DNA from: a virus
Direction: 5' to 3' (one strand)
IMG/VR virus record: IMGVR_UViG_3300035698_011135
Location: 1-22,511 of that record
Length of the DNA: 22,511 nt
Shown here: positions 2,211 through 22,075 of the stretch, piece after piece
Layout of the letters: each line of letters starts with the position of its first letter
Position numbering within the stretch: position 1 is the first letter of the stretch
The notes under the pieces: generated by a model
Databases searched by the model: none
Told to the model about the DNA's origin: nothing
The model's input: the letters and a program-made list of their open reading frames with translations, nothing else
Made by a program: the position numbers and the translations under genes

Positions 2211-3674
2211 ATGCTCAAAACCAAAATCGGTACAACTCTGAAGCGGCCACCATACTATTGCGATGAGAGGGCTTCTTGGATCATCCCCCTGACGCAGGGC
2301 TTCGAAACCCTGATCGACACGCGGGATCTGTATCTCGGCTATGACCACAACTGGTATGCGGCTTGCGTTTCTCCGTGCCTTCCGCATCTGATGTACGCCT
2401 ATACGAGCGCGAAGACAGAGGCTGGAGCCCATACTTCGGTTGGTCTCCATGCCAAGATCATGGACCCCCCAAATGGCATGGAGGTGGACCATGAGAACCG
2501 CGACACACTGGATAATCGCAGGGGCAATCTTAGGGTCTGTGCCGGCTCGGACAACGCCGGCAATTCCAGAGCAAAAGCCCACCGAGGCGGCCGGCCGTGC
2601 ACATCGCAATACAAGGGAGTATACGCCTTCAGGAAAAGGTGGCGCGCTGAATTGAAGAGGAACGGCATCAGGCTCTGGAAGGGTTTTGACAGTGAACAGG
2701 CAGCTGCGCGTCAATACGACGAGTGGGCTCTGCAGCACTTTGGAGAATACGCTCGAACCAATTTTGGAGAGGTAAGTTGTCACGATGTTGACCAGGCGAG
2801 AACACATAAAGCAGATCATCAGCGACACGGCCAAGGCAAACCTGATGTCATATCGGGAGCTGAAGGGAGGACATTCTGCAAGGGAATACCGGGCCAGAAA
2901 GGCCGCCATCCTGAGGGTTCACGAGCAGTACCCAAGCCTTTCGTCCACGCAGCTCGGCCTTGTTTTCGGGCGCCACCACACATCCATCCTGTACGCCATG
3001 GGGCGGCTTACCAAGAGGAGAGATCGCTGATGATAGCCGTTGCCATGCCGACCATGAGCGGAGAGGTGCGCATCGAGATCGCCGGTGCCCTTCTCGACTT
3101 GCAGGGTACTCTGGCTCAGCGGGGCATCCCTATGGGATTGATCTACGCCGACGGGTGCTCGCTGATTCACAAGGCCCGCGATGCGCTTGCTCATACGTGC
3201 ATGCAGGTCCCTGACGTCACCCACATTTTCTGGCTCGACGCCGATGTCCTGTTCCGTGTCGAGGACGTCATGACGATGCTCGACAGCGGGCTCGCGTACG
3301 TCTTCGCGCCAATCGTTTCTCAGGACGGCCGGGTGTACTTCACCCCTCAGGAGCCGCGGGTCGAGCGGGATGATATGCTCAAGGTCACCTTCGGTACCGT
3401 CTCCTGCTCCCTGATTGAGGTTGGGGTGTTTCAGAGACTGGCTGCTTCTCGACCCCGCTACCTGAACACGAAGGCCGGCACGAATGTGACGTCGTTCTTT
3501 GAGACCCCCCGAGAGCACAAAAAAATGTTGGGGGAGGACTTCTTTTTTTCACGCCTTGTCGATGGCGCCGGCATCGACATGTGGGCTATGATGAACAGCG
3601 AAACGCAGCACTTCAAGAGCGTGCCTCTCGTATGCTGCATGAGTGAAATCCTGAAGGAGCCCAAAAGTGACTGA
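2211..3674 (+). CDS. HNH-AP2 homing endonuclease reading frame, stop lost
   Basis: Residues 1-190 are the recognisable protein. An HNH_3 nuclease core (VDHENRDTLDNRRGNLR, about residues 91-107) is followed by an AP2-type DNA-binding domain (SQYKGVYAFRKRWRAEL to HFGEYARTNFGE, about residues 132-187). Such genes are free-standing mobile endonucleases. AP2-HNH proteins normally end right after a motif like ARxNF. Here the frame stays open past 2772, runs through the DnaA-like gene in another frame (Pro/His/Arg/Gly-rich text that looks non-coding), and enters the glycosyltransferase gene in frame, giving 487 codons. A TAA at 2773-2775, one base out of frame, suggests an old +1 insertion in GAGAGG. 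Functional extent is probably 2211 to about 2775. Confidence 0.7.
   Translation: MLKTKIGTTLKRPPYYCDERASWIIPLTQGFETLIDTRDLYLGYDHNWYAACVSPCLPHLMYAYTSAKTEAGAHTSVGLHAKIMDPPNGMEVDHENRDTLDNRRGNLRVCAGSDNAGNSRAKAHRGGRPCTSQYKGVYAFRKRWRAELKRNGIRLWKGFDSEQAAARQYDEWALQHFGEYARTNFGEVSCHDVDQARTHKADHQRHGQGKPDVISGAEGRTFCKGIPGQKGRHPEGSRAVPKPFVHAARPCFRAPPHIHPVRHGAAYQEERSLMIAVAMPTMSGEVRIEIAGALLDLQGTLAQRGIPMGLIYADGCSLIHKARDALAHTCMQVPDVTHIFWLDADVLFRVEDVMTMLDSGLAYVFAPIVSQDGRVYFTPQEPRVERDDMLKVTFGTVSCSLIEVGVFQRLAASRPRYLNTKAGTNVTSFFETPREHKKMLGEDFFFSRLVDGAGIDMWAMMNSETQHFKSVPLVCCMSEILKEPKSD
2785..3030 (+). CDS. Stand-alone DnaA domain IV-like DNA-binding protein
   Basis: Predicted product of 81 residues resembling the C-terminal DnaA-box-binding domain (Bac_DnaA_C). 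An N-terminal helix (HIKQIISDTAKANLMSYREL) is followed by a conserved basic helix with arginines (SAREYRARKAAILRV), then LSSTQLGLVFGRHHTSILYA. This last part matches the DnaA signature region in which an FGxRDHTTV loop and helix contact DNA. The AAA+ domain is absent. It may bind DnaA-box-like sites in phage or host DNA, controlling replication or transcription; that is inference. GGAGAGG (2766-2772) stands 12 bases before the ATG. It lies entirely inside the read-through part of the HNH frame. Confidence 0.65.
   Translation: MLTRREHIKQIISDTAKANLMSYRELKGGHSAREYRARKAAILRVHEQYPSLSSTQLGLVFGRHHTSILYAMGRLTKRRDR
3030..3674 (+). CDS. Glycosyltransferase-like protein (GT-A type)
   Basis: Predicted product of 214 residues. 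The ATG overlaps the upstream TGA, and AGAGGAGAG lies just before it. An N-terminal alpha/beta half leads to THIFWLDADVLF (about residues 66-77), where LDADV resembles the DxD metal/nucleotide-sugar motif of GT-A enzymes. GEDFFFSRLVDGAG (about residues 170-183) matches the acceptor-side ED pattern of GT2-like enzymes, and a His follows in SETQHFKS. It could modify a phage surface component, host polysaccharide or DNA; the sequence does not decide. The frame continues upstream into the HNH-AP2 gene. Two of only three GANTC sites seen in the window fall here and in the next gene (3164 and 3841). Confidence 0.55.
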   Translation: MIAVAMPTMSGEVRIEIAGALLDLQGTLAQRGIPMGLIYADGCSLIHKARDALAHTCMQVPDVTHIFWLDADVLFRVEDVMTMLDSGLAYVFAPIVSQDGRVYFTPQEPRVERDDMLKVTFGTVSCSLIEVGVFQRLAASRPRYLNTKAGTNVTSFFETPREHKKMLGEDFFFSRLVDGAGIDMWAMMNSETQHFKSVPLVCCMSEILKEPKSD

Positions 3675-4017: not shown

Positions 4018-4094
4018 CTGGGTGTGGCGCAGTCTGGTAGCGTATCTGGTTTGGAACCAGAGGGACGCAGGTTCAAATCCTGCCACCCAGACCA
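4018..4094 (+). tRNA. tRNA-Pro (anticodon TGG)
   Basis: A full cloverleaf: acceptor CTGGGTG (4018-4024) with CACCCAG (4084-4090), D-stem GCGC/GCGT, anticodon stem TCTGG/CCAGA around loop TTTGGAA, anticodon TGG at 4052-4054, T-stem GCAGG/CCTGC around TTCAAAT, discriminator A, and an encoded CCA at 4092-4094. The C1 start is typical of proline tRNAs. The cyclical match is complete, so a functional gene is likely. Confidence 0.95.
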
Positions 4095-4096
4095 AT

Positions 4097-4170
4097 TCTC
4101 GGGTAGCTGAGTGGTCTAACGACGGCCTCTAAATCCGGGGACGCGGGTTCAAATCCCGCCCCGAGAACCA
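4097..4170 (+). tRNA. tRNA-like gene with CTA anticodon (putative amber suppressor)
   Basis: The acceptor stem TCTCGGG (4097-4103) with CCCGAGA (4160-4166) and the T-arm GCGGG/CCCGC around TTCAAAT are perfect, and CCA is encoded at 4168-4170. The best anticodon loop is CTCTAAA (4127-4133), with U33 and A37-A38 in place and anticodon CTA at 4129-4131, which would read UAG. The anticodon stem keeps only three central pairs (C-G, G-C, G-C), with mismatches at both ends, and the D-stem is weak. It is either a suppressor tRNA with an unusual fold or a decaying tRNA. It starts two bases after the tRNA-Pro CCA. Confidence 0.75.
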
Positions 4171-4473: not shown

Positions 4474-4736
4474 GACACCGACTACGTCAGGAGCTGCCGT
4501 ATGGGTATCGCAAAATCGTGGCGTTTCATGCCGGCGTATCCAAGACGGCAATTACCCTGCAGCTGAATGGGACAAACCCGATTACTCCCGCGGTGGCCAT
4601 GGCCATCGAGTGGGTGTGCGGCTTTCCATCTGCTGTGATTATCGTCCAACAGGGCATGGAGGCCCTAGAAAAAGAGAGGCAAAAATGGGACACACGCGTA
4701 AAGTTGAATGGACAGACAAGGCCATCAAAACACTGA
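4446..4736 (+). CDS. Cro/YdaS-like helix-turn-helix regulator
   Basis: Predicted product of 96 residues. Residues 10-62 match Cro/YdaS-type HTH proteins: YGYRKIVAFHAGVSKTAITL reads as helix 2-turn-recognition helix, followed by QLNGTNPITPAVAMAIEWVC, the typical NGxxPI..A..IE pattern. The C-terminal 25 residues are basic and polar (KERQKWDTRVKLNGQTRP). Such proteins bind palindromic operators as dimers. This is the most obvious candidate in the window for binding GTTTAAAC, though nothing in the sequence proves it. The ribosome site is weak. It overlaps both neighbours; GcrA starts 52 bases before its stop. Confidence 0.65.
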   Translation: MFSTDPGSIRHRLRQELPYGYRKIVAFHAGVSKTAITLQLNGTNPITPAVAMAIEWVCGFPSAVIIVQQGMEALEKERQKWDTRVKLNGQTRPSKH

Positions 4737-5200
4737 CCGGGTTGTGGAGTGACTATTCGGCATCGGTCATTGCGGAGCGGCTTGGCAGGACCCGAAACTC
4801 AGTCATGGGAAAAGCCAAAAGGCTTGGTCTGCCGGCGAAGGGCGGACACGTAAAGGGTGGGCCGCGTTCCGGTAGGAGAAATCTCGACCCAAAGCCCCAC
4901 CGCCCGCCGAGGGCTGTTCGAGGGTTTGCTGTGGACAAGATCAGGACCGCACGCACACACAGCATCATGCTGACCAAGCCAGCGCTGCCTAGCCGGGCGC
5001 CTGTCCGGCACGAGATGGTTGGTCTGGCTGAGAAGGAGCACCGCTGCCTGAGCATCTCATCACTTGGAGCAAAGCACTGCCGGTGGGTGATTGGCAGCAC
5101 GTCCGGCGCCGATACCGTATATTGCGCGGATGACACGTGCGACGGGACATCGTGGTGCGAGTGGCACCTGCAGAAGGTGGTGCGTGTTATTTCCGTTTGA
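4685..5200 (+). CDS. gcrA: GcrA-family cell cycle regulator
   Basis: Predicted product of 171 residues, a usual GcrA length. The N-terminal domain has the GcrA signature: VEWTDKAIKTLTGLWSDYSA, then SVIAERLGRTRNSVMGKAKR (about residues 8-48). A basic Pro/Arg-rich linker follows, then the conserved C-terminal half: GAKHCRWVIG (near residue 131), TVYCADD and SWCEWHLQKV with its cysteines. In Caulobacter GcrA works with sigma70 RNA polymerase at promoters methylated at GANTC by CcrM. A phage copy could redirect host polymerase to phage or S-phase promoters. The ATG at 4685 has GAGAGG ahead. It lies directly before the terminase, where many phages have the small terminase. Confidence 0.9.
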   Translation: MGHTRKVEWTDKAIKTLTGLWSDYSASVIAERLGRTRNSVMGKAKRLGLPAKGGHVKGGPRSGRRNLDPKPHRPPRAVRGFAVDKIRTARTHSIMLTKPALPSRAPVRHEMVGLAEKEHRCLSISSLGAKHCRWVIGSTSGADTVYCADDTCDGTSWCEWHLQKVVRVISV

Positions 5201-5225: not shown

Positions 5226-5232
5226 TTTGCGT

Positions 5233-8175
5233 ATGATCAGCGCAGAGGCACTTGGGTTGAACCTCAATATCTCGACTGAGGAAATCGCCAGTCTTCCCCT
5301 CGACGAGCAACGGCAGCTGCTGAAGCTCGTCGAGGAGTATGAAGAGCACATCTCCAAGGAAAAAAGCCACACGCACTTTTTGGATTTTGTCCATGAAGTC
5401 TGGCCCGGCTTTATCCATGGTCGACATCACGAGATCATGGCCGACGCCTTCGAGCGCGTCGCCTCTGGCAAGCTCAAGCGCCTGATCATAAACATGCCCC
5501 CGCGGCACAAACTCGCGGTTGATACTCCAATAGCGACAACCAATGGTTGGAAAACCATGGAGACTGTATCCGAGGGAGATTATGTGTTTTCTCCAAGTGG
5601 CGGGCCAGTTCAAGTTACTGGAAAGTCAGATGTTTATGATGAGGAACTGTACCGCGTTACCCGATCTGACGGGGCTTCAGTGGTATGCGATGGCTCTCAT
5701 TTGTGGACAATAAGGAAGGGAACCCGTCTAAACTGTCCCTTCCGCCCCCAGTCCACATCGACCCTTTATGAGCGTCAGAAGAGGTTGAAAAACTCAAACA
5801 AGGCCCCAAAACTCCCTCGGGTTCACCCTGTCCAATATCCAGACAAAACCCTTCCGGTCCCTCCGTATATTCTGGGAGCATGGCTTGGTGATGGGGCTGC
5901 TTCATGTGGAACGATGGGGGCGCATCCCGATGATGCAGCACACATGCGACGCATGTTTGAGGAGCGTGGCGTTGGGACGACAGATCTATCGACAAAATAT
6001 ATTTTTGGCACACTGGGTCTGATGGTGAAGCTGAGGGACATTGGGGTCCTGAATAACAAGCACATCCCGGCACAATATCTGACAGCTTCAGTTTCTCAGA
6101 GAATGGACCTGCTCCGCGGCCTCATGGATACGGACGGCGATGTGACTGTTAACGGAAAATGCACCTTTAATAATTCGAACAAGGCCCTCATGGAGGGGTT
6201 TGTCGAGGTCCTGCATAGTCTTGGACTTCCGTGCCGGATAACTGAGAGGCAGGGCTCGTACAATGGCATCATTGGTCAGGTTGCATATCGTGCTTCATTC
6301 AAGATGGCCGGAGCTGCTACGCTTCCGCGCAAGGCGGGCCGATGTCGGAATAAAAACGGGAATATGCACTCATCAATTTCCATTGAACGGCTCCTGAAAA
6401 CTGGACCGGTCCAGTGCCTTCAAATCGCCAATAAGGACGGCCTTTTCCTTGCCGGAAGAGGGTATATCTGCACTCACAACACCAAGTCTGAATTTGCCTC
6501 GTGGCTGCTCCCCGCGTGGTATCTCGGGAAGTATCCGGACCGGAAGGTCATTCAGGCATCCCACACCGCCCCTCTGGCTGTCGGCTTCGGCCGCCGGGTC
6601 AAGAACCTTGTGGACAGCGAGGACTACCAAAGGATCTTTGATACGCGACTGGCGGCAGATGCAAAGGCGTCGGGTAAGTGGTCCACCACCGTCGGCGGTG
6701 AGTATTTTGCCATTGGCGTGGGTGGTAACGTGGCCGGTAAGGGCGCCCACGTCTTCATCATCGATGACCCCCATTCCGAACAGGATTACATCGACGGGCA
6801 GTTCAATCCTGAGGTCTGGAAGAAGGTGTACAACTGGTACATGACCGGCCCTCGGCAGCGTCTGCAGCCGGGTGGCGCCATGGTCATCGTCATGTGCATG
6901 ACCGGCGACACCAGCGTGTCGATGGCGGATGGAACAGTGAGGGAGTTGCGGGATATCCGCCCCGGCGACGACGTGTTGACGTATGAAGACGGCGGTCTGT
7001 CCACAGCCAAGATTGCAAATTGGCGGTCAAGTGGTGTAGATGACATATTGAAAATACAAACACTATCTGGCAAGGTTATTCGCGCAAACGGGAGACACCC
7101 GTTTCTCGTCGAGCGCGAAAATGGAGACAGAGAATGGGTGCGACTGGAGAACCTGAAGACGAGCATGCAGCTTGTATCAGTCAGGGCTGCGACAGGCCAT
7201 CAAGATACCTCAGGCATCACCACTGACATCATCATTTCGGTCACACCGGATGGTCGTGATGAGGTGTTCGACGTTGAGGTGGAGCGCACCGAGAATTTCA
7301 TTGCCAACGGTGTGATTAGCCACAACACGCGATGGAACAAGCAGGACCTGACCGGCGCCCTGATCAAGGACTTCATCCAGAAGGAGGGTGCGGAGTGGGA
7401 GGTGATCGAGCTCCCGGCCATCCTTGGCGACGGGCAAATCGGGGATCCGACCCTGTGGCCGGAGTTCTGGGATCCGGAAGAAATCTACAATCTGAAGCGA
7501 GAGCTGCCGATTGGTCCGTGGTCCGCGCAGTACCAGCAGGATCCATCCTCTGAGGAAGCTGCCCTCATCAAGCGGGATCACTGGCAGATCTGGTCTGAGC
7601 CGGAGCCCCCGAAGTGCGAGGCAACGATCATCGCGTGGGACACGGCCTTCACGCAGACGGAGATGTCGAACTATTCGGCCTGCACCACGTGGGGCGTCTT
7701 CAAGCGTGTGGGCGAGGATGGGAAGAAGGTGACCGCCGTCATCTTGCTGGATGCCTTCAAAAATAAATGGGAGTTTCCGGAGCTGAAGGCGGTGGCCTTG
7801 CGACATTACAACGAAAACAAGCCGGACATGTTCCTGATCGAGAAGAAGTCGTCAGGCATCCCGCTCGTGCAGGAGTTGAGGAAGATCGGCATCCCGGTTC
7901 AGGAGTATGTCCCCTCTCGTGGACAAGACAAGATATCGCGTGTAAACTCCATCACTGACCTGTTCGCATCCGGGTGCGTCTATGCGCCGGAGACGAAGTG
8001 GGCCGAAGAAGTGATCGAGGAATGCGCGGCGTTCCCGACCGGCGAGAATGATGACTACGTCGACAGCATGTCGCTGGCCTTGATGCGGTTCCGTCAGGGT
8101 GGTTGGATCGGCGTTCCGAGTGATGAGGACTGGGACGAGAGCCCACCTCTGCGCAGGCGAGAGCCTTTCTATTGA
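5233..8175 (+). CDS. terL: Terminase large subunit precursor with two inteins
   Basis: The precursor is 980 residues from the ATG at 5233 (a TTG at 5227 is possible). Removing inteins of 324 and 144 residues leaves 512, the usual size of this DNA-packaging motor. Extein motifs: MPPRH joined to TKSEFASW (Walker A-like loop, split by intein 1), HVFIIDDP (Walker B, codons near 6763), GGAMVIVM joined to TRWNKQDLTG (coupling motif, split by intein 2), then the RNase H-like nuclease with AWDTAF (Asp codon 7639), LIEKKSSG and DDYVDSMSLAL. The enzyme cuts concatemers and pumps DNA into the prohead through the portal encoded next. No ribosome site precedes the start. Without splicing of both inteins the ATPase would be dead. 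Confidence 0.93.
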   Translation: MISAEALGLNLNISTEEIASLPLDEQRQLLKLVEEYEEHISKEKSHTHFLDFVHEVWPGFIHGRHHEIMADAFERVASGKLKRLIINMPPRHKLAVDTPIATTNGWKTMETVSEGDYVFSPSGGPVQVTGKSDVYDEELYRVTRSDGASVVCDGSHLWTIRKGTRLNCPFRPQSTSTLYERQKRLKNSNKAPKLPRVHPVQYPDKTLPVPPYILGAWLGDGAASCGTMGAHPDDAAHMRRMFEERGVGTTDLSTKYIFGTLGLMVKLRDIGVLNNKHIPAQYLTASVSQRMDLLRGLMDTDGDVTVNGKCTFNNSNKALMEGFVEVLHSLGLPCRITERQGSYNGIIGQVAYRASFKMAGAATLPRKAGRCRNKNGNMHSSISIERLLKTGPVQCLQIANKDGLFLAGRGYICTHNTKSEFASWLLPAWYLGKYPDRKVIQASHTAPLAVGFGRRVKNLVDSEDYQRIFDTRLAADAKASGKWSTTVGGEYFAIGVGGNVAGKGAHVFIIDDPHSEQDYIDGQFNPEVWKKVYNWYMTGPRQRLQPGGAMVIVMCMTGDTSVSMADGTVRELRDIRPGDDVLTYEDGGLSTAKIANWRSSGVDDILKIQTLSGKVIRANGRHPFLVERENGDREWVRLENLKTSMQLVSVRAATGHQDTSGITTDIIISVTPDGRDEVFDVEVERTENFIANGVISHNTRWNKQDLTGALIKDFIQKEGAEWEVIELPAILGDGQIGDPTLWPEFWDPEEIYNLKRELPIGPWSAQYQQDPSSEEAALIKRDHWQIWSEPEPPKCEATIIAWDTAFTQTEMSNYSACTTWGVFKRVGEDGKKVTAVILLDAFKNKWEFPELKAVALRHYNENKPDMFLIEKKSSGIPLVQELRKIGIPVQEYVPSRGQDKISRVNSITDLFASGCVYAPETKWAEEVIEECAAFPTGENDDYVDSMSLALMRFRQGGWIGVPSDEDWDESPPLRRREPFY
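5509..6480 (+). other. Intein 1: class 3 (Trp-Cys-Thr) intein with LAGLIDADG endonuclease
   Basis: 324 residues between PPRH and TKSE. The first residue is Lys, not Cys, Ser or Ala. The class 3 triad is present: Trp66 in DGSHLW (block B, codon 5704), Cys303 in VQCLQI (block F position 4, codon 6415) and Thr322 in CTHN (block G position 5). The intein ends His-Asn before Thr+1. In class 3 inteins the block F Cys attacks the N-terminal splice junction directly. The centre holds two dodecapeptides, ILGAWLGDGA (residues 121-130) and LLRGLMDTDG (201-210), so a homing endonuclease is present and looks intact. Codons are visibly more AT-rich than the flanking exteins, consistent with recent arrival. 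Confidence 0.9.
6895..7326 (+). other. Intein 2: class 1 mini-intein
   Basis: 144 residues splitting the motif MVIVM/TRW. It begins CMTGDTSVSMADGT (Cys1, block A), has RANGRHPFLV (block B, with Asn where Thr is usual in TxxH), a block F region DEVFDVEVERTENFIANG, and ends GVISHN before Thr+1. It is too short for an endonuclease and none of the LAGLIDADG motifs appear, so it is a mini-intein that must have lost or never carried homing. Splicing should follow the standard Cys1-Thr+1 route. Confidence 0.9.
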
Positions 8176-10885: not shown

Positions 10886-11359
10886 ATGGCTGCCTACAAT
10901 ACCGACGAGGCGCGTTCGCGTGCCGAAGAGGCCAAACGTACCGCCTCGACCCTACCGAGGCCATCAGGGTACAAGATCCTGATCGCCCTCGCCGAGCTCG
11001 AAGAAAAGACCGAGGGCTCCGTATTCCTCCCCGATCAGTACCGACAGAAAGAGCAGGCCGCCAGCGTGCTTGGGTTTGTCGTTGAGCTGGGCCCGGACGC
11101 CTACAGGCGCAAGGACAAGTTCCCGACCGGCCCATGGTGCAAGGACGGCGACTGGGTTCTCCTGAGCCCGTATGCCGGCGTACGCATCACGATCTTCGGC
11201 AAGGAGTTCCGTCTCGTGAACGACGACGTGATCGAAGCCGTCATCGAAAACCCGATGGGTATTGGTCGGTCCGGTATGGCTCAAACCAAGGGGTCTCCCA
11301 TCAAGAAGCCGTCGCTTCTGGAGACCACGGCACTGACGGAGGACGCTCACAATGGCTAA
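10886..11359 (+). CDS. GroES-like co-chaperonin
   Basis: Predicted product of 157 residues, of which about 25-115 match Cpn10: GYKILIALAELEEKTEGSVF, then LPDQYRQKEQAASVLGFVVE, LGPDAY, GDWVLLSPYAGVRI and RLVNDDVIEAVI. These correspond to the GroES beta-barrel with a mobile loop after EEKTEG. The N-terminal 25 residues and a 40-residue C-terminal tail are extra. Like T4 gp31, such proteins can cap host GroEL to help fold the capsid protein, and the gene leads the head operon. Ribosome site AAAGGAGACAGC. An in-frame fold match is clear; partner and substrate are inferred. Confidence 0.85.
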   Translation: MAAYNTDEARSRAEEAKRTASTLPRPSGYKILIALAELEEKTEGSVFLPDQYRQKEQAASVLGFVVELGPDAYRRKDKFPTGPWCKDGDWVLLSPYAGVRITIFGKEFRLVNDDVIEAVIENPMGIGRSGMAQTKGSPIKKPSLLETTALTEDAHNG

Positions 11360-21619: not shown

Positions 21620-22075
21620 ATGCTCGGATCGGAACCACTGGCCGGGGGTGTGCTGGCCCAACAGGGCGGGGCGATCACGGTCGCCGCTGCGGTGGGGGCG
21701 TATGTGGTGTCCGGACAGGCAGCTGGGTTGCTACACGACCGCGTGCTGAATATGGGCAATGGGTCGTTCGCACTGACCGGTCAAGATGCCGGACTGTTGC
21801 GGGACCTGTTGCTGGCTGTGGAGGCCGGCAGCCTTGTTGTTTCCGGGCAGACTGCCGGGTTGCTCGTCGGGTATGCGGTGCCTGCAGGGGCTGGCAGCCT
21901 TGTTGTTTCCGGGCAGACTGCCGGGTTGCTCGTCGGGTATGCGGTGCCTGCAGGGGCTGGGGTTTTTCTCTGGACCGGCAAGCACATCTGGGGGCCGGTT
22001 CCAAACACGTTGGACACATGGACGCCTGTTGCGAACACCGCAGACGCGTGGACTGAAGTGGAGGCATTGGACTGA
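21620..22075 (+). CDS. 22-residue-repeat virion protein
   Basis: Predicted product of 151 residues, about 4.5 copies of a 22-residue unit with plan SxxVxGQxAGLLxxxxxxxxAG. The first two units are diverged (AYVVSGQAAGLLHDRVLNMG, SFALTGQDAGLLRDLLLAVE), the next two are identical, and a partial fifth reads VFLWTGK. The tail (GPVPNTLDTWTPVANTADAW) carries NTxDTWTPV/NTADAWTEV, a smaller doublet often seen in proteins before tail fibres. Likely a tail or fibre component. Stop overlaps the next ATG. Confidence 0.6.
   Translation: MLGSEPLAGGVLAQQGGAITVAAAVGAYVVSGQAAGLLHDRVLNMGNGSFALTGQDAGLLRDLLLAVEAGSLVVSGQTAGLLVGYAVPAGAGSLVVSGQTAGLLVGYAVPAGAGVFLWTGKHIWGPVPNTLDTWTPVANTADAWTEVEALD
21827..21958 (+). 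repeat. Perfect 66-bp tandem repeat, two copies
   Basis: The unit begins GGCAGCCTTGTTGTTTCCGG and ends GCAGGGGCT. Copies occupy 21827-21892 and 21893-21958 with no differences seen, while the neighbouring units of the same protein repeat are strongly diverged. It therefore looks like a recent duplication of one 22-codon unit. Confidence 0.9.

Follow-up and report, generated by a model that had tools for sequence, protein, structure and literature searches.

A predicted class 3 intein, its LAGLIDADG motifs seemingly intact, in the ATP-binding loop of a phage terminase, alongside a class 1 mini-intein

Background

Class 3 inteins, of which 1701 were counted in nr by 2020 (PMC7891396), include published splicing examples from phage terminases, among them the TerL1-e intein of mycobacteriophage Gaia gp2, which splices in a reporter (PMC5050341). 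An earlier note on the DNA studied here had called class 3 inteins few, a description that these publications make outdated. The DnaB helicase of M. smegmatis combines a P-loop class 3 intein with one of class 1 (PMC6195587). A literature search found no paper that treats a class 3 intein together with an endonuclease and the large subunit of a terminase.

The stretch of DNA analysed here, referred to as the window, is a virus record of 22.5 kb (IMGVR_UViG_3300035698_011135, 22,511 nucleotides) that may be a fragment. In all probability, the large terminase subunit gene (terL) of this phage harbors a mobile class 3 intein in its Walker A-like loop and, farther downstream, a separate mini-intein of class 1.

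Results and Discussion

The terminase gene and its surroundings

The terL gene (5233..8175, + strand, as are all terL features below) was recognized by TIGR01630, by PF17289 (the C-terminal nuclease) and by homology to the terminase of locus L011. Its open frame of 982 codons (5227-8175) opens at TTG 5227; excision of both inteins from the full frame in silico leaves a 514-residue terminase, of which 512 residues are counted from ATG 5233. A scan of viral contigs with the spliced terminase identified the L011 protein, which has 91% amino acid identity over 514 residues, contains neither insertion, and reads NMPPRHTKSE and VIVMTRW where the two inteins would be. Relative to L011, the terL extein is under strong purifying selection (dN 0.056, dS 1.09, dN/dS approximately 0.05). 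Judged by sequence, the gene carries two unrelated inteins, one of class 3 and the other of class 1.

Several other features of the window were noted. A gene encoding a GcrA-like cell-cycle regulator (4685-5200) is located directly upstream of terL, and a GroES-like (Cpn10) gene (10886-11359) is flanked by portal and capsid genes. Two tRNA genes lie side by side (4018-4170): one is tRNA-Pro (TGG), and the other (Rfam tRNA, 49 bits), labelled Pyl by ARAGORN, carries a CTA anticodon with which it could decode amber stops. TAG is the stop codon of just three of the 27 main ORFs. The reading frame of an HNH endonuclease (2211-3674) runs on, uninterrupted by a stop codon, into a phrog_1574-like domain downstream, and is overlapped in another frame by a DnaA_C-like ORF (2785-3030). 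A tandem repeat of a 66-bp unit (2.1 copies, 21823-21960) lies within an ORF close to the right end.

Position and splice junctions of the class 3 intein

The class 3 intein (5509..6480, 324 amino acids, with LAGLIDADG endonuclease motifs) is inserted at MPPRH/TKSE, where the slash marks the insertion point, and its translation (KLAVDTP...YICTHN) lies within a single open frame. The alignment, the empty allele and a structural model all indicate this placement. Because L011 provides the empty allele, both splice points are fixed, and Lys (AAA, 5509..5511) is the true residue 1, preceded by His at position -1 (5506-5508) and followed after the intein by Thr at position +1 (6481..6483), the predicted acceptor of the N-extein. 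Splicing in silico yields ...NMPPRH-TKSE..., identical to L011 at the junction, and PPRHTKSE is present in most related intein-free terminases. The coordinates and the rebuilt motif given by the earlier note are therefore exact. That note had also considered that a Cys1 might be concealed by a junction error; the L011 junction rules this out, and Lys stays residue 1. A junction at PPRHK/LAV was also rejected, since the spliced product would keep an extra Lys, unlike the intein-free relatives.

This register agrees with an AlphaFold model (mean pLDDT 89.4) for which eleven sequences from the same site served as input. Residues 10-333 of the model superimpose on residues 1-139 of 6bs8, a mycobacterial class 3 DnaB intein, with an rmsd of 1.4 Å over 123 residues (Z 18.7, 36% identity); model residue 10, which is Lys1, is aligned to residue 1 of 6bs8, and the alignment runs to the last residue of the intein. 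Compared with PI-SceI, an intein with both HINT and LAGLIDADG domains, the model scores Z 27.6.

Class assignment and motifs

Residue 1 of the intein is not a Cys, Ser or Thr nucleophile, and the remaining signature of class 3 is present in full: Trp at B:12, Cys at F:4, and Thr at G:5 followed by His-Asn. Block B (CDGSHLW, 5686..5706) contains Cys60, Asp61 (B:7), His64 (B:10) and the triad residue Trp66 (B:12). Block F (VQCLQI, 6409..6426) contains Cys303 (F:4, 6415-6417), the predicted branch-point nucleophile, which pairs with the block F Cys of 6bs8 in a sequence alignment. Block G (CTHN, 6469..6480) contains Thr322 (G:5), the penultimate His323 and the terminal Asn324. Between these lie the first LAGLIDADG motif (block C, ILGAWLGDG, 5869..5895) with Asp128 and the second (block E, LLRGLMDTDG, 6109..6138) with Asp209. 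In an alignment of nine class 3 inteins (that of the window and eight others, all from different loci), W66, C303, T322, N324, H64, D128 and D209 are invariant, so that the triad proposed by the earlier note from the window sequence matches column for column.

The intein has a match along residues 2-324 in the terminase intein of mycobacteriophage Gaia (tblastn, E 4e-48) and another in the class 3 DnaB intein 6bs8 (E 4e-17), and the Pfam models LAGLIDADG_3 (PF14528) and Hom_end (PF05204) score above cut-off; the resemblance to class 3 inteins is thus not due to chance, and the endonuclease motifs appear intact, as the earlier note had described them. Among sequences with solved structures, the window intein is closest to the mycobacterial class 3 DnaB inteins. 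The Pfam splicing-domain model gave no match on this intein, though it reported the second one. Together, alignment, empty allele and model lend good support to an intein of class 3, its LAGLIDADG motifs apparently undamaged, in the ATP-binding loop of the terminase.

Residue 1 among class 3 inteins

In a survey, viral and prokaryotic contigs yielded 192 class 3 inteins, with Ala at residue 1 in 125, Pro in 28, Arg in 10, Gly in 7, Leu in 7, Gln in 6, Met in 4, Lys in 2, and Cys, Asn and Glu in one each, counts that are rough because near-identical loci were counted separately. Residue +1 is Ser or Thr in 189 of the 192. Arg and Lys chiefly follow His or Phe at position -1 and Ala chiefly follows Lys, an association that is confounded by ancestry and is not claimed here. 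Thus Lys1 is rare, as the earlier note had said, but the special status given to it does not hold: residue 1 varies widely, and Arg1 prevails in the nearest clade. Lys1 is a mild variant of the Arg1 of its relatives, a single conservative substitution away from what is usual in the clade, since the other seven members carry Arg1.

Lys1 should be tolerated because residue 1 is not a nucleophile in class 3 inteins, and the window case together with the survey indicates that this residue is broadly free. The loss of splicing upon an A1G change in the AceL NrdHF intein (PMC7891396) indicates that residue 1 can matter. No experimental precedent was found for Lys1, the published AceL NrdHF and Msm DnaBi1 inteins both having Ala1.

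Relatives at the same site in terminases of uncultured phages

Class 3 inteins occupy the MPPRH/TKSE site in fifteen other IMG/VR loci, and are 43-57% identical to the window intein (short flanks included) where aligned. Residue 1 is Arg in L091, L092, L093, L095, L102, L255/L256 and L257, Ala in L094, L097-L099 and L253, and Pro in L086 and L252. In a quick tree, made without bootstrap and only from inteins with Cys at F:4, the window intein and the seven Arg1 rows form a supported, starred eight-row clade (SH-aLRT 99); the class 3 inteins of L096, L100 and L101, which are inserted at a Walker B site (DDPH/SEQD) that is unoccupied in the window terminase, belong to the same larger starred set of the tree. 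Some relatives depart from the window intein at conserved positions: L255/L256 have Ser and L102 has Gly at G:5 instead of Thr322, L086 and L252 have Leu in place of His323, the site of L252 is preceded by APRH rather than PPRH, and L253 has Ser rather than Thr at +1. For pairs of same-site inteins, dN/dS analysis gave no usable synonymous estimate. A related terminase (L003:759-4331) has a Gln1 class 3 intein two residues downstream (PPRHGK/S) and an apparent second intein elsewhere in the protein. The Walker A-like loop is therefore a recurrent insertion point for class 3 inteins in a large family of uncultured-phage terminases.

A second intein, of class 1

The second intein (6895..7326), which the earlier note did not mention, is a class 1 mini-intein of 144 amino acids without an endonuclease, located at VIVM/TRW, matched by PF14890 and TIGR01443/TIGR01445, and absent from the empty site in L011. 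It begins with Cys1 and ends with SHN, the C-terminal His-Asn being that of class 1. Among the other same-site terminases examined, only L091 and L092 have the TRW site occupied, and these two possess relatives of the window inteins at both sites. The presence of class 3 and class 1 inteins in one terminase implies that a working terminase should depend on splicing by both classes; such a dependence would echo that of the M. smegmatis DnaB helicase.

Proposed route of splicing and homing, and alternatives

By analogy with class 3 chemistry, Cys303 would attack the peptide bond between His(-1) and Lys1, the N-extein would then be transferred to Thr+1, cyclization of Asn324 would free the intein, and rearrangement of the ester to a peptide bond would restore the ATP-binding loop; an active terminase should also require splicing of the class 1 intein. 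The endonuclease, whose activity we infer from its motifs, presumably cuts intein-free terL alleles, after which repair would copy the intein into them. The empty site in L011 is a candidate homing target, and the many existing intein-free terL alleles are suited to homing assays.

The rarity of Lys1 (2/192) could also signify that this intein has lost efficient splicing, being capable of cleavage only or decaying, with terL left poorly functional; a dead class 3 intein, Arth_1007, is known, and lacks Cys F:4 and His B:10 (PMC3196547). Every catalytic position is intact in the window intein, however, the frame is open through all 982 codons, the extein evolves under strong purifying selection relative to L011, and the similar Arg1 is found in seven clade members at the same site, all of which make decay very improbable. 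Even harder to credit is a class 2-like route with Cys303 dispensable, in which Thr+1 would attack the N-terminal junction directly: residue 1 lacks a nucleophile, as in class 2, but every class 2 intein reported is a KlbA orthologue with Cys+1 and Asp F:4 (PMC4031507), whereas this intein has Thr+1, Cys F:4 and the entire class 3 triad.

Within class 3 splicing, which remains the preferred reading, Cys60 deserves comment. Located next to the block B Asp, it is shared by all eight inteins of the clade; in the survey of class 3 inteins, roughly one in four has Cys at this position. A role for the basic residue 1 (Arg/Lys) of the clade, such as setting a strained His-Lys/Arg scissile bond, combined with a redox switch between Cys60 and Cys303 that might resemble the pairing of Cys48 with Cys118 in M. 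smegmatis DnaBi1, is conceivable but unlikely; if real, the switch would tie terminase maturation to the state of the cell. The accepted class 3 mechanism is unchanged by these results.

Comparison with known systems

The window intein resembles Gaia gp2 TerL1-e in its class 3 triad, LAGLIDADG motifs and phage terminase host, with 34.5% identity over residues 2-324 (the near-identical Nebkiss copy was aligned), but TerL1-e is inserted in the Walker B region and has Ala1 and Ser at +1, whereas the window intein is in the Walker A-like loop and has Lys1 and Thr at +1. With the mycobacterial DnaB class 3 inteins (Msm DnaBi1, 6bs8; MchDnaB1, 6rix/6riy) it shares the triad, the HINT fold and a P-loop site; these differ in their helicase host, lack of an endonuclease domain, and Ala1. 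The AceL NrdHF intein (6zgq; model Z 14.5) is similar in its HINT fold and in the Cys F:4 mechanism, which is predicted for the window intein, but is split, has Met instead of Trp, is missing two conserved His residues, and has Ala1 (PMC7891396). Thus, the window intein is a well-supported and largely ordinary addition to the known class 3 family.
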